DNA of 32,582 nt from Falsirhodobacter xinxiangensis. GTDB taxonomy: Bacteria > Pseudomonadota > Alphaproteobacteria > Rhodobacterales > Rhodobacteraceae. The stretch is from contig NZ_SMYN01000024.1 of NCBI RefSeq assembly GCF_004959935.1, positions 1 through 32,582 of the forward strand, given 5' to 3'. Numbering within the stretch: position 1 is the first letter of the stretch; each line of letters begins with the position of its first letter. Of the stretch, positions 6,413 through 32,582 are shown one piece after another. The notes below the pieces were generated by a model. It had not been told where the DNA came from. It was given only the letters and a program-made list of their open reading frames with translations, and ran no database searches. The translations under genes and the position numbers were made by a program.

Positions 6413-6445
6413 TCCGATCATTCGGACAAGTTTAATCCGTTGGAT
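6413..6445. promoter_or_regulatory. two dyads in the ZIP/TDT divergent promoter (LysR operator candidates)
   Basis: TCCGA-TCAT-TCGGA (6413-6426) and ATCC-GTT-GGAT (6435-6445) are perfect short inverted repeats in the 95-base region between the divergent ZIP and TDT genes. The first matches the T-N11-A pattern of LysR binding sites. Binding by the local LysR protein is inferred from position. Confidence 0.5.
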
Positions 6446-6489
6446 CGGTTGCGCTAGCCCCTCTATCTCCATACCCAAGGAGATACCCG

Positions 6490-7599
6490 ATGACCTTCGA
6501 GAAAATGCGCGCCGTATCGCTCGGCTTTCAACCGCTCAGCCGCCTCGACAGCCCGCGCGAGGTGGTGCGCCAGTTCACCCCGAACTGGTTCGCCGCCACC
6601 ATGGGCACCGGCATCCTGTCCATCGCGCTGGCGCAAACCCCGTTCCGCGCGGTGGGCGAGGCGCTGTGGATCCTTAACATCGGCCTCTTCGCGCTGTTCA
6701 GCGTGCTTTACGCGGCGCGGTGGGTGTTCTTCTTCGACGGGGCGCGCCGCGTCTTCGGCCATTCGGTCGTGTCGATGTTCTTTGGCTGCATCCCGATGGG
6801 ACTGGCCACGATCATCAACGGCCTGCTGATCTATCGCGGCGCGGTGGGGCTGGCGGAAACGCTGTGGTGGATCGACGTCGCGATGGCTGCCGCCTGTGGC
6901 ATCGCCATCCCCTATCTGATGTTCACCCGCCAAAGCCATTCCATCGACCAGATGACCGCCGTGTGGCTTCTGCCCATGGTCGCGGCCGAGGTGGCGGCAG
7001 TGACGGGCGGGCTTCTGGCCCCGCATGTCGGGAACGGCCTGACGGTGCTGTGGGTGTCTTATACCCTCTGGGCGCTGTCGGTGCCCATCGCGATGAGCGT
7101 GCTGGTGGTGCTGGTCCTGCGCCTTGCGATCCACAAACTGCCGCATGCGTCGATGGCGGCCTCGGCCTGGCTGGCGCTTGGGCCCATCGGCACCGGCGCG
7201 CTTGGCCTGATGACCCTGGGCGAGGCTGCGCCCGCCATCTTCGCCGCGCACGGGCTGGACGCCTATGTCGGCGCAGCCCAGGGCGTCGGTCTGATCGGCG
7301 GGATGATCCTGTGGGGCTACGGCCTGTGGTGGTTCGCGATGGCCGCCCTGATCACTGGGCGCTACCTGCGCGAGGGGCTGCCGTTCAACCTCGGCTGGTG
7401 GGGCTATACCTTTCCCATCGGGGTGTTCGCGGTGGCGACGCTGAAGCTGGGCACGCTGATGCCCATCGGCTCGATCCACGTCTTCGGCCTGATGCTGGTG
7501 GCCCTGCTGGCCGTGATCTGGACCATCGTGGCTACGCGCACCGTGCGCGGGGCGTGGCGGGGTGATCTGTTCGTCGCTCCTTGCCTGAAGGAGGATTGA
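6490..7599 (+). CDS. TDT/SLAC1 family anion transporter (sulfite exporter type)
   Basis: A 369-residue membrane protein with about ten hydrophobic segments. The opening FTPNWFAATMGTGILSIAL is diagnostic of the tellurite-resistance/dicarboxylate transporter (TDT) family, which includes TehA, SLAC1 and the yeast sulfite pump SSU1. A strong AAGGAG lies 7 bases before ATG. It is divergent from the ZIP-LysR genes and upstream of a sulfite dehydrogenase, so export of sulfite or a related anion is the best guess. A dicarboxylate or chloride role is possible. Its stop is followed after one base by the start of a truncated Tat-signal gene. Confidence 0.88.
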   Translation: MTFEKMRAVSLGFQPLSRLDSPREVVRQFTPNWFAATMGTGILSIALAQTPFRAVGEALWILNIGLFALFSVLYAARWVFFFDGARRVFGHSVVSMFFGCIPMGLATIINGLLIYRGAVGLAETLWWIDVAMAAACGIAIPYLMFTRQSHSIDQMTAVWLLPMVAAEVAAVTGGLLAPHVGNGLTVLWVSYTLWALSVPIAMSVLVVLVLRLAIHKLPHASMAASAWLALGPIGTGALGLMTLGEAAPAIFAAHGLDAYVGAAQGVGLIGGMILWGYGLWWFAMAALITGRYLREGLPFNLGWWGYTFPIGVFAVATLKLGTLMPIGSIHVFGLMLVALLAVIWTIVATRTVRGAWRGDLFVAPCLKED

Positions 7600-29322: not shown

Positions 29323-30345
29323 CTAGAAGCCAAGTGTTACTGTATGAAATACCTGTTGAGCGTCGCGATCTAAACCCAGTATGTCAGCAAGATAGTCATC
29401 GACAGTCGCTGGTGTTATATGAGTTTTGACGCCATACGCTGTTGCAATGACGAGGAGATACTGCGCCATTCTGCCTACGTCGAAGTAAAGGTTGCGCAAA
29501 GCACGTTCGTGTCGGTAGCGCCACTGGAAACGCCGAAAATCAGCGGTTAATAGAATAGTGCAAGCTGCGGTCAGCGCCTGCTCATGGCCTATTAGCCCCT
29601 TACAAATTTCTTGCCGAAATAGTCCAGACCGATTTAGGCGAAGCCGATCTTGGCTGATACTGTAAAAATAGATACCGGCTTCAAGACCAGGCACATCAAA
29701 AATAGCAATGTACGGGTCGAACGCAAAACCCACACCGTGAAGAATATTATGAATATGCTCTTCAACATCCGGCACATGATAGCGGCGAGATACTGAGAAG
29801 CCGTTGGCCAACAAACCATGGAGTATTTCCGATGTTAGCTCGCCGTTAGAAGTCATCGAAAGTGTTGTTTTTCGCGACGCGAGAACATCTCCTACATTAC
29901 ACTTTGGTGGGATTGGTGCCGGCGCCCCTATGAAGCTGTTCTCACTGGCGTCCACGAGCTCGGGCAAGGGAAGTTCCTTGTCTACCAGCATCTGCTTAAG
30001 CGCATTGCACCGAAGATCTTCGTAGTTCTCGCCTTCATCAAGAAACGTGTCCCTAATAGACCAATGATAGTAGCTCAAGGCCAAGGCCCAGTTTCGCTCT
30101 TTCCAGTGGTTTAGACTCCCAGTAGCGCTTGCTGTCTTTGATTCTGCTGTAGGTCCGATGAGGTCGAGTGCCGTCAAAGCCTCAAGCTGTTTCTTACCAA
30201 GGCCTTTATCCGAAAAAAGTGCGTCGAGTAGATCTTGCTTCCGCATACGATAACGCTTTTGCTCAGATGCGTCACTAATTTGAACCTCTCCGAGCGGCTC
30301 AACTTTGTTGGGCCTTATCGTAACAAGTGGATTCCAATAGCTCAT
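29323..30345 (-). CDS. SagB-like (nitroreductase-fold) protein B, lacks SGG motif
   Basis: A 340-residue protein. The first 120 residues are helical (ERNWALALSYYHWSIRDTFLDEGENY), then a nitroreductase/SagB-type domain: GLEAGIYFYSISQDRLRL, HEQALTAACTILLTADFRRFQWRYRHERALRNLYFDVGRMAQ (given in parts), and VDDYLADILGLD. These blocks fit SagB-type peptide dehydrogenases and their relatives. The FMN-contact SGG-x-RHP motif of the partner is absent (FAFDPYIAIF stands there). ATG 30345 overlaps the stop of the partner gene (TGATG) with GAGG 7 bases before. Codons are visibly AT-richer than in the resistance genes. Confidence 0.75.
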   Translation of the reverse strand: MSYWNPLVTIRPNKVEPLGEVQISDASEQKRYRMRKQDLLDALFSDKGLGKKQLEALTALDLIGPTAESKTASATGSLNHWKERNWALALSYYHWSIRDTFLDEGENYEDLRCNALKQMLVDKELPLPELVDASENSFIGAPAPIPPKCNVGDVLASRKTTLSMTSNGELTSEILHGLLANGFSVSRRYHVPDVEEHIHNILHGVGFAFDPYIAIFDVPGLEAGIYFYSISQDRLRLNRSGLFRQEICKGLIGHEQALTAACTILLTADFRRFQWRYRHERALRNLYFDVGRMAQYLLVIATAYGVKTHITPATVDDYLADILGLDRDAQQVFHTVTLGF

Positions 30346-31508
30346 CAATCAGCCTCATAAACGAAGACTTTTGAATTTCTAGTGCGTTGGTTTCCAGAAC
30401 CTCCGATCGCAGCGCCGTAGATTACGCCTTCAACAAGTGGATCCAATCTGAGAAGTTCTCCAACTTTTCGGTCATTGAGCCCATGTTGCACTAAACAGTT
30501 CACGCGAAGAGCTTTTGCAGAGATATCCATGGTCCCGCATATGTGCCCAACGTCCATGTAGATCGCCCGGAAGCTTCGTGGTTCCCGATACCGATACATG
30601 CTTCGCTCAAAGACGCTTGTCATCACGACGACGCCGTCGACAGCAAACGATGCTCGCAACGGCCCCGAAAATAGTTTCATCATTTGATCGTGAGAGTCTT
30701 CGAATTCTGCGATCCTATCAAGCGAAACATCGAGAACGTTATAGTGGTAAATGCCGGGATTAAGTCCCTCAATGGATGCGGCAAAAAGATAGGCTTCGGT
30801 TGGATGCCGCGACCCTCCAGAAGGACTAGTCTTGCCTATAGCATCGGCCATTAGGCGGGAATTGGTCGCGAGTTGGCGAGATCTCAGTTTTCCAAAAACT
30901 ACAGATAGAAGTGCAAGGCATCGCGAGCGGTCTAAGCGCTCTAGACCAGGGTCGCCGTTCCACAAGTCTACGAAAGGCTCTTTGAGGTCTTGGAGCACGT
31001 CAGCGGCTAATGGCGCAGGAATGCGATTTGGCGCATCAGCAAAGTACTTCGCTCGCTCCAAGTCTGGTTCTGTTTGGACATACTGAACCATCCTTTGGTA
31101 ATCAATTTCTCTTCCGTCTACCGAATAATCCGCAAACGGGTAATTTAATGTCGCGACGTGGTAGTCAGCAGAGTCAACCCAGCCATATTCGGCCCAAGCC
31201 TTAAACAGCGCAGAATATCGACAATGGTCTGTATCGTCTGGCGGCACTAGAAGACGGAGCTGACTGAGTTGCGCAACTGTCTCATCCAGGAGAGACCGAT
31301 CCAAGGCATACCGATTAGCGAGTGCGGCGCAGATAGCCTCTACGTTGCCGCCGTCCATAAATGCAATCAGAACTGCAGTTGCAACTTGCGAGCATCGAAA
31401 CCGTACGCAGCTTACCAAGTCAATCGCGAGCCATCCTGAGCCGTCGCCCGCGCTAGGATAGAGCCGCAACCCGCTGTGGGTTACCAGCTCATCGGTGCTC
31501 CAGTTCAT
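30345..31508 (-). CDS. SagB-like (nitroreductase-fold) protein A with N-terminal winged-helix-like domain
   Basis: A 387-residue protein. Residues about 10-90 (LRLYPSAGDGSGWLAIDL to LSQLRLLVPPDD) look like a PqqD-like or SagB N-terminal domain of the sort that binds leader peptides. WAEYGWVDSADYH follows, and from about residue 190 the nitroreductase fold with the FMN motif KTSPSGGSRHPTEAYLFA, LNPGIYHYNVLDVSLDRI, and YMDVGHICGTMDISAKALRVN. It would be an FMN-dependent oxidoreductase. The start could also be GTG 31526; ATG 31508 is chosen. It follows the small-peptide gene by 26 bases and is coupled to protein B. Confidence 0.78.
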   Translation of the reverse strand: MNWSTDELVTHSGLRLYPSAGDGSGWLAIDLVSCVRFRCSQVATAVLIAFMDGGNVEAICAALANRYALDRSLLDETVAQLSQLRLLVPPDDTDHCRYSALFKAWAEYGWVDSADYHVATLNYPFADYSVDGREIDYQRMVQYVQTEPDLERAKYFADAPNRIPAPLAADVLQDLKEPFVDLWNGDPGLERLDRSRCLALLSVVFGKLRSRQLATNSRLMADAIGKTSPSGGSRHPTEAYLFAASIEGLNPGIYHYNVLDVSLDRIAEFEDSHDQMMKLFSGPLRASFAVDGVVVMTSVFERSMYRYREPRSFRAIYMDVGHICGTMDISAKALRVNCLVQHGLNDRKVGELLRLDPLVEGVIYGAAIGGSGNQRTRNSKVFVYEAD

Positions 31509-31534
31509 TCTCACTGAGAATTCCACCGACGACT

Positions 31535-31708
31535 TTATTCAGAAGCATCTGATTCGTCTTTGGCTTGCTCCCTTAGAGTCCACGGTTCGGCTTTCATTTG
31601 CTTGAGAGCAGAAATTGGCTCCCCAAGTACCTCGATAATGAATATATCGCTTTTCTCACTGTCGCGACGGATCCGGACGAGGTCTTCACTGCTGTCAGGT
31701 GCGGTCAT
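31535..31708 (-). CDS. 57-residue peptide, candidate substrate of the SagB-like pair
   Basis: A small acidic peptide beginning MTAPDSSEDLVRIRRD, with a hydrophobic middle (SDIFIIEVLGEPISALK) and a charged C-terminus (EPWTLREQAKDESDASE). No cysteine, no signal peptide, no GG cleavage site. GGAG lies 8 bases before ATG 31708; a longer frame upstream has no ribosome binding site. First gene of the operon with two SagB-like proteins. It could be a precursor peptide or a small accessory subunit; there is no family I recognise. Confidence 0.65.
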   Translation of the reverse strand: MTAPDSSEDLVRIRRDSEKSDIFIIEVLGEPISALKQMKAEPWTLREQAKDESDASE

Positions 31709-32134
31709 GGCGTTAGCTCCAATTAAATAAAAACGAGCAAACAATGCGATCAGTTTCTGCAGAGGGCAAACGAGAGCTGCAGGTAAAGATCGACCAGCCG
31801 ATTGAGCCACAGAATTTCATTTCTAGCAAGAAAAACGTGATGGTTTGGAGGCGGCATAAGTAGCGAATGGCTTTTACGGTTGTGCGGGTACCGTGTTCAG
31901 GCCGTCGGGCTACTTTCTGTCCGAGCTTAATGTTGCGCCGCGCACGAATGTCCGAGGGGAGGTTGGAAGCGGTCCGCTGCACTTACAGGACTCTAGATCA
32001 ACCTGACCGTCATCTATGGGCTCTTTGCGGTAGTTTTGCGTGACGAACGAGGCAGAGACGTCTGACACACTGTCGGTGCTTTCCGAAGTCCTTGCATCGT
32101 GCCGAGGCAGATCCGTCTGCGAATCTACAATCTT
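31709..32134. other. upstream region of the peptide operon, AT-rich, no supported gene
   Basis: About 425 bases between the peptide gene and the right long repeat. The first 90 bases are AT-rich and should contain the operon promoter, but no convincing -35/-10 pair could be fixed. An inverted copy of the repeat's AAACTACC motif lies at 32030-32037 (GGTAGTTTTGCGTGACGAA). Confidence 0.5.
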
Positions 32135-32582
32135 TGTGAACACCGCGCAAAACTACCTTTTGCGTCACGAAACTACCTCGTGCGTGTTCCGACATTCCCG
32201 TTTGCGCCCCTCTGCTCCGCCAGTGGCGAAGCCATCCGTGCTTTTCACTTTGGATGACCTCATGTCATCCGAAGGGCAAAGCAGGGTGGGCGCAGCCCGA
32301 CCTGCGGCCGGACGGTGATCTGACACACGGGGCCGGAGCGGTGAAATTGGGAGGGACCCGCGCCGTGGCGCGGGAGGAACCGGATTTCTCCGTGGAGGCT
32401 GACGCGGAGCGGCACCAGAGCCCGTGTTCAGAGCGTCGGCCGGATGGCAGGCGGACCAAGCGAACAGAAAAGGTGTCAGGCGCGCCAGAGCGGAGCGGAG
32501 GCGCGGCTGTCCTTCGGATCAGCGATCGCGGCCTCTACCGCGATCTCCGCATCAGCTTCCGTCGTTGCAGGGCAGGGGGTTA
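32135..32582. repeat. right copy of the long direct repeat, to window end
   Basis: Second copy of the 2284-2735 sequence, same orientation, offset about 29.85 kb. The iteron-like pair is at 32150-32189 (AAACTACC at 32150 and 32170) and the GGATGAC-CTCAT-GTCATCC hairpin at 32252-32270. Differences are single-base changes (for example GGCCGTAGC against GGCCGGAGC) plus small indels around 32185-32225. It may continue past the window edge. Confidence 0.85.

Follow-up and report, generated by a model that had tools for sequence, protein, structure and literature searches.

What does a SagB-type oxidase act on in a genome that encodes no YcaO protein? SagB-type oxidases are usually regarded as finishing enzymes for YcaO-made azolines. 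The question is raised by a 32,582-nucleotide stretch of the Falsirhodobacter xinxiangensis genome (contig NZ_SMYN01000024.1; hereafter the window), in which a short peptide gene is followed by genes for two SagB-fold proteins, here named B and A. We propose that these three genes probably constitute a minimal cassette of the ribosomally synthesized and post-translationally modified peptide (RiPP) type, in which B and A jointly dehydrogenate the peptide without a prior azoline.

Gene organization and peptide conservation

The cassette runs along the minus strand from the peptide gene (31535-31708, stop codon included) through B (30345-31526) to A (29323-30348). The candidate precursor gene starts with ATG, encodes 57 residues and is preceded by GGAG (31717-31720), a likely ribosome-binding site located 8 nt upstream of the start. 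Its end is separated by 8 nt from the GTG of B, and the stop codon of B overlaps the ATG of A (at 30345) in the sequence TGATG. B has 393 residues when read from the GTG, although its true start may instead lie at an in-frame ATG (31508); A has 341 residues from a TTG or may be read from the ATG at 30345. A preliminary description of the window had placed a peptide gene and two coupled SagB-fold genes at these coordinates and had called the operon AT-richer than its surroundings. Both statements are borne out: the GC content is 50.0% in the cassette versus 60.1% in the window, and a lower value is found in only 2 of 302 same-sized sliding windows.

Is the short frame a genuine gene? The window peptide matches no NCBIfam or Pfam family, and tblastn finds no homologue of it among 72,556 plasmid records (E up to 1). 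A peptide encoded in Rhizobium phaseoli (L013:6793-6969) is identical to it at 30 of 57 aligned residues, and the two genes differ at codon positions 1, 2 and 3 in 22, 15 and 37 cases, respectively. Together, the codon-position pattern and the identity indicate that the frame is translated and conserved. The preliminary description had reasoned that a precursor role would fall if the frame were not conserved or if related pairs lacked the small gene; the frame is kept in Rhizobium, and a small open reading frame (ORF) accompanies the pair at nearly all loci. The cassette thus has a short encoded candidate precursor adjoining a putative modifying enzyme, as is expected of a RiPP system. Residues 31-37 of the window peptide (31598-31618, minus strand) read PxxALKQ, a motif picked post hoc that recurs in the peptides of L013 and of two further loci, L035 and L036, both of which were retrieved only once the window, Rhizobium and archaeal peptides were already known. 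In a set of 2,624 short ORFs (20-75 residues, 23 sources), PxxALKQ occurs only in the L013, L035 and L036 peptides, and ALKQ in one other ORF; the window peptide falls outside this set, being counted there as a 91-residue ORF.

A proposed single FMN site shared by B and A

B belongs to the SagB family of peptide dehydrogenases, as its TIGR03605 score of 91.4 bits exceeds the cut-off of 78.4, whereas A scores 63.6 bits and falls below it; A matches PF00881 at 31.3 bits, above the cut-off of 23.5. B carries the flavin mononucleotide (FMN) motif TSPSGGSRHP and A lacks the PSGG motif, as was first noticed in the preliminary description, which had asked for the TIGRFAM comparison.

The two proteins appear to hold complementary parts of one binding site. 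In B, the segment K232-T-S-P-S-G-G-S-R-H-P242 (30801-30833) places K232, P235 and S236 on R98, P101 and S102 of 3EO7, a putative nitroreductase from Anabaena variabilis, and the segment D325-V-G-H328 (30543-30554) aligns with D188 and H191 of 3EO7. In A, Arg159 (29872-29874) aligns with R334. At the 11 loci examined, the K/R, P and S of the first B element are conserved throughout, the histidine of the DxGH element is present in all and its aspartate in 10 (asparagine in the remaining one), and the arginine of A is invariant, so that B and A carry complementary half-sites in 11 of 11 cases. Moreover, B and A are fused in one protein at L015, L018 and L019. The complementary half-sites, the natural fusions and the solved fusion 3EO7 argue for a B-A heterodimer with one FMN site, an arrangement that the preliminary description had anticipated. 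Judged by sequence, FMN contacts appear to be split between unlike halves, as in a bipartite nitroreductase of the 3EO7 type. A and B look like paralogues.

B contains an additional N-terminal domain (residues 12-104, 31215-31493). Pfam PqqD reaches 16.3 bits on residues 48-87 (E 0.012), below its cut-off of 23.4, but the structure predicted for residues 12-104, with a pLDDT near 90 over most of its length and less around 21-30, matches the fold of proteins that contain a RiPP recognition element (RRE), or peptide clamp. The earlier suggestion of a PqqD/winged-helix-like N-terminus holds in this form, and B probably possesses the leader-binding domain of a RiPP enzyme, as far as the fold match tells.

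Distribution of the B-A pair

A tblastn search of plasmids identifies B (34% identity) and A (29% identity) together in Thermus thermophilus SG0.5JP17-16, and a pair that an IS630 element splits in Anoxybacillus amylolyticus. One scan of a species-genome collection (84,980 genomes) with a B profile built from three sequences yields eight loci, namely Rhizobium phaseoli (59%), two Thermoplasmata, four actinobacteria and one Chlamydiae metagenome-assembled genome (MAG), all eight of which also encode A. Two more sampled families add six pairs (L035, L036 and L043-L046), giving a total of 17 loci with the window. Two genes lie between B and A at L016. Halorussus encodes a pair that is more distant, at about 28% identity. 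In the Anoxybacillus cassette, L010:9643-10476 encodes a third SagB-like protein that is shorter and bears an NGARH motif; it lies between A and an apparent membrane transporter gene (by eye).

The cassette is rare, including among relatives of the window's host. It was not found in six other genomes of the genus, and 149 genomes drawn from the family give one weak match beyond the window's own genome (26% identity, query residues 198-377). With centre genomes counted, matches at E up to 1e-20 occur in 1 of 396 genomes in the phylum of Kribbella, 1 of 297 in the family of Rhizobium and 3 of 145 in the phylum of L017 (three near-identical B proteins); at E up to 1e-30, they occur in 4 of 297 genomes in the family of L018 and 5 of 300 in that of L016. 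In a tree of 19 B proteins, the window groups with Rhizobium and L035 with L036, both with support, and the union of the two pairs is unsupported.

Absence of azole chemistry

Could the locus be an ordinary azole RiPP cluster whose cyclodehydratase is encoded elsewhere in the genome? B exceeds the SagB model cut-off and its best fold match is ThcOx, in line with such a cluster. However, no YcaO is encoded in the whole window genome (99.58% complete) or in five of eight other whole genomes searched (G150, G151, G152, G153 and G155), several genomes being MAGs of unknown completeness; in the other three (G149, G154 and G156), YcaO lies on contigs other than that of the cassette. The six genomes of L035, L036 and L043-L046 are outside this search. 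The peptides disagree with azole formation as well, because 15 of the 17 assigned peptides are free of cysteine. The window peptide is among them, as the preliminary description had stated, and contains serine and threonine. Neither the cyclodehydratase nor the core cysteine of a thiazole/oxazole-modified microcin is therefore present in the window genome and peptide, respectively. The earlier concern that a YcaO gene just outside the window would make this an ordinary azole cluster is thereby answered, and we consider an azole cluster, already disfavoured, very improbable.

The McbC residues K201 and Y202, which we take to be catalytic, align with R312 and Y313 of B. Arg-Tyr is found at this position in 17 of 17 B proteins, and two haloarchaeal outgroup proteins do not fit.

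Short peptides at the related loci

The peptides at the other loci fall into lineage-specific types. In the seven actinobacterial peptides, which accompany one B clade, Y-x-x-M-L-L-Q is followed by the last four or five residues. The archaeal peptides consist of 23 residues, are encoded divergently from B behind strong Shine-Dalgarno sites and end in AKQNGG at L014 and L017 as well as at the near-identical L023, L024 and L025. The Thermus ORF is annotated as a hypothetical protein. In Halorussus caseinilyticus, two 30-residue ORFs that are identical at 28 of 30 residues (L026:6149-6241 and 6436-6528, minus strand) stand beside B, each preceded by TTGGAGGTGAAACTA, a strong Shine-Dalgarno sequence; this B-A pair lies near carbamoyltransferase, major facilitator superfamily (MFS) exporter and siderophore genes. 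A general motif, [FY][ED][ILV]x[LV][LIV]Q, fits the Thermus, Chlamydiae and actinobacterial peptides and was dropped, as it does not fit the window peptide. In a cross-lineage local alignment, the assigned peptide ranks top among the short ORFs of its own locus in 8 of 17 cases.

A different function of the pair has to be weighed here. B-A may oxidize an amino-acid-derived or other small metabolite, with the short ORF serving as a chaperone, a regulator or a coupling ORF. The distant Halorussus pair and the B-like genes of Natrinema and Priestia have siderophore genes, nickel transporters or MFS exporters nearby, and plant relatives of the single-chain fusion 3EO7 have been proposed as ordinary nitroreductases in the available part of PMC7538488. 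Against a small-molecule dehydrogenase stand the RRE-like domain of B, the conservation of the peptides in several lineages together with their doubling in Halorussus, and the peptidase gene that accompanies the pair at seven actinobacterial loci. We regard such an enzyme as unlikely. The B-like SagB genes of the Priestia and Natrinema plasmids (L028:4800-7135 and L029:4719-7078) are each followed by an MFS gene and adjoin nickel ABC transporters; they are perhaps metallophore-related.

Accessory modules

The peptide, B and A stand alone in the window, in Rhizobium and at L035 and L036 (short stretches, by eye). Elsewhere, further genes join them. All seven loci of the actinobacterial clade encode an S9 peptidase, a MATE exporter and a TPR protein, the last as a remnant in L015. 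The Thermus cassette has a MATE protein and a DUF885-like protein (24.1 bits, below the cut-off of 32.4), the Thermoplasmata cassettes have MFS and GNAT proteins, and the Chlamydiae cassette has an ABC transporter with one membrane subunit above the Pfam cut-off. One to two further copies, full or partial, of a TPR-containing family of about 410 residues surround actinobacterial cassettes (for example, L018:11021-12274).

ThiF-type proteins in the Thermus, Chlamydiae and L046 cassettes suggest yet another chemistry. The peptide may serve as a carrier that is activated or extended at its C-terminus, in a ThiF/MccB-like manner or as by a PEARL, with B-A oxidizing the appended or terminal unit. 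The L035 peptide weakly recalls the ammosamide/lymphostin leader, at 13.6 bits against a cut-off of 30 (E 0.056). However, no ThiF gene is seen by eye in the window cassette, the rest of that genome lying outside this inspection, and tblastn finds none at the Rhizobium, archaeal, Anoxybacillus or other actinobacterial loci. Scaffold-peptide chemistry is accordingly improbable in our judgement.

A role in anti-phage defence was rejected, since A and B match none of the PADLOC families (E up to 0.001). PADLOC detects a short prokaryotic Argonaute (pAgo class I) with a DUF4365/REase-type partner near the Rhizobium phaseoli cassette (L013:10137-12907).

The window itself is part of scaffold C17 (35,414 bp). 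Inspection by eye of the scaffold past the window, up to 35,414 bp, shows a string of undetermined bases together with a NUDIX-like ORF and an IS3-type transposase, with no YcaO, protease or exporter, in agreement with the preliminary description of the window. Arsenic-resistance-like genes lie to the left of the cassette (by eye). The right end of the window matches plasmids of Paracoccus and other marine-type alphaproteobacteria. Highly similar ORF sequences occur at the two window ends (2408-2848 and 32254-32582). Paracoccus plasmids match the region that contains the right copy at up to 93%, and the sequences may therefore represent a repeated plasmid element.

Proposed mechanism

How would the pair act on the peptide? 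In the dehydrogenation that we favour, the 57-residue peptide would be the substrate and would be docked to B through the N-terminal RRE-like domain. B and A would pair as a nitroreductase-type heterodimer and build a single FMN site, to which B would contribute the PSGG and DxGH elements and A the arginine of its RR[ST] element, a second possible site having been lost on both sides. The dimer would then take two electrons from an ordinary peptide residue, through Calpha-Cbeta or side-chain dehydrogenation, with no prior azoline. The target residue may be located around PxxALKQ or in the tail behind it. The computation supports the gene order, peptide conservation, half-site complementarity, fusion, RRE fold and YcaO absence; the substrate identity, the oxidation type, the target residue and any product function are inferred.

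Several observations weigh against this proposal. The window cassette has no protease or exporter. The model of the fusion is of moderate confidence (pLDDT 63), with a B half based on four aligned rows. By local alignment, only 9 of 17 peptides beat shuffled sequences at 5%, and 8 fail. The window peptide ranks first when compared with 11 peptides, but 71 of 500 shuffles are as good; with 17 peptides, it ranks 3 of 111, and 280 of 1000 shuffles are as good. The corresponding count is 327 of 1000 for the Rhizobium peptide and 794 of 1000 for the Anoxybacillus candidate, which thus lacks similarity support. In addition, a Shine-Dalgarno-preceded short ORF lies upstream of 20 of 156 genes in these loci (B genes included), which makes position alone weak evidence.

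Relation to known systems

Two elements of the proposal are already known: a SagB cluster that has a precursor-like protein without sagC or sagD, and a fused split-site fold. The first is cluster OS3 (Os1348-1351) of Pseudomonas sp. Os17, for which the available text of PMC7726476 reports a SagB-type protein, no sagA, sagC or sagD homologue, and reduced antibiotic activity on loss of the precursor gene. By its description there, OS3 resembles the window cassette in combining a small precursor-like protein with a SagB-type protein; it differs in its 85-residue precursor, annotated as nitrile hydratase-like, and in its GNAT protein, HEXXH peptidase and single SagB-type protein of 650 residues. 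The second is 3EO7, which, like its plant relatives, joins a B-like and an A-like half. Unlike the window pair, 3EO7 is a single fused chain; we know of no peptide partner for it. Both of its halves contact FMN, according to the accessible part of PMC7538488.

The azoline dehydrogenases McbC, ThcOx and SagB share the FMN nitroreductase fold and the PSGG motif with B. These enzymes act after a YcaO-type cyclodehydratase, whereas B-A cassettes have hardly any cysteine in their peptides and the window genome has no YcaO. ThcOx has a peptide clamp and dimerizes from two like chains that carry one FMN each, as stated in the excerpts available from PMC5108345. An analogy for the proposed reaction is offered by AlbAB, which dehydrogenates cyclic dipeptides directly (PMC11055893, in the portion available). 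AlbAB is unlike B-A in several respects: its AlbB partner is a helical bundle, it binds FMN covalently, it forms a filament and it acts on a cyclic dipeptide. The pair lacks the AlbB-like helical partner of a cyclodipeptide oxidase, since A belongs to the SagB/nitroreductase family.

TIGR04511 (SagB_rel_DH_2, putative peptide maturation dehydrogenase) is matched, with E up to 0.001, by every one of the 11 B and 11 A proteins scanned. Membership was rejected at 103 bits for the window B and 79.6 for A against a cut-off of 240, and a literature search for the full family name found no paper. Literature searches, with most subscription journals outside their coverage, found no description of a separate A-B pair with short peptides.

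Implications

We give about even weight to a broader view, in which the window cassette would be the minimal form of an uncharacterised RiPP class in bacteria and archaea. The hallmark of this class would be that a split-site SagB heterodimer uses its flavin to oxidize a residue that has not been modified beforehand, with no need for YcaO; ThiF, protease, TPR-protein and exporter modules would be optional additions. The three-gene form is small enough for direct testing. The B-A pair with a short ORF would provide a mining signature for loci that YcaO-based searches would miss. If the proposal is correct, a peptide-linked, YcaO-free pair with a shared FMN site would mean that primary chemistry on peptides is within the repertoire of the SagB fold itself.
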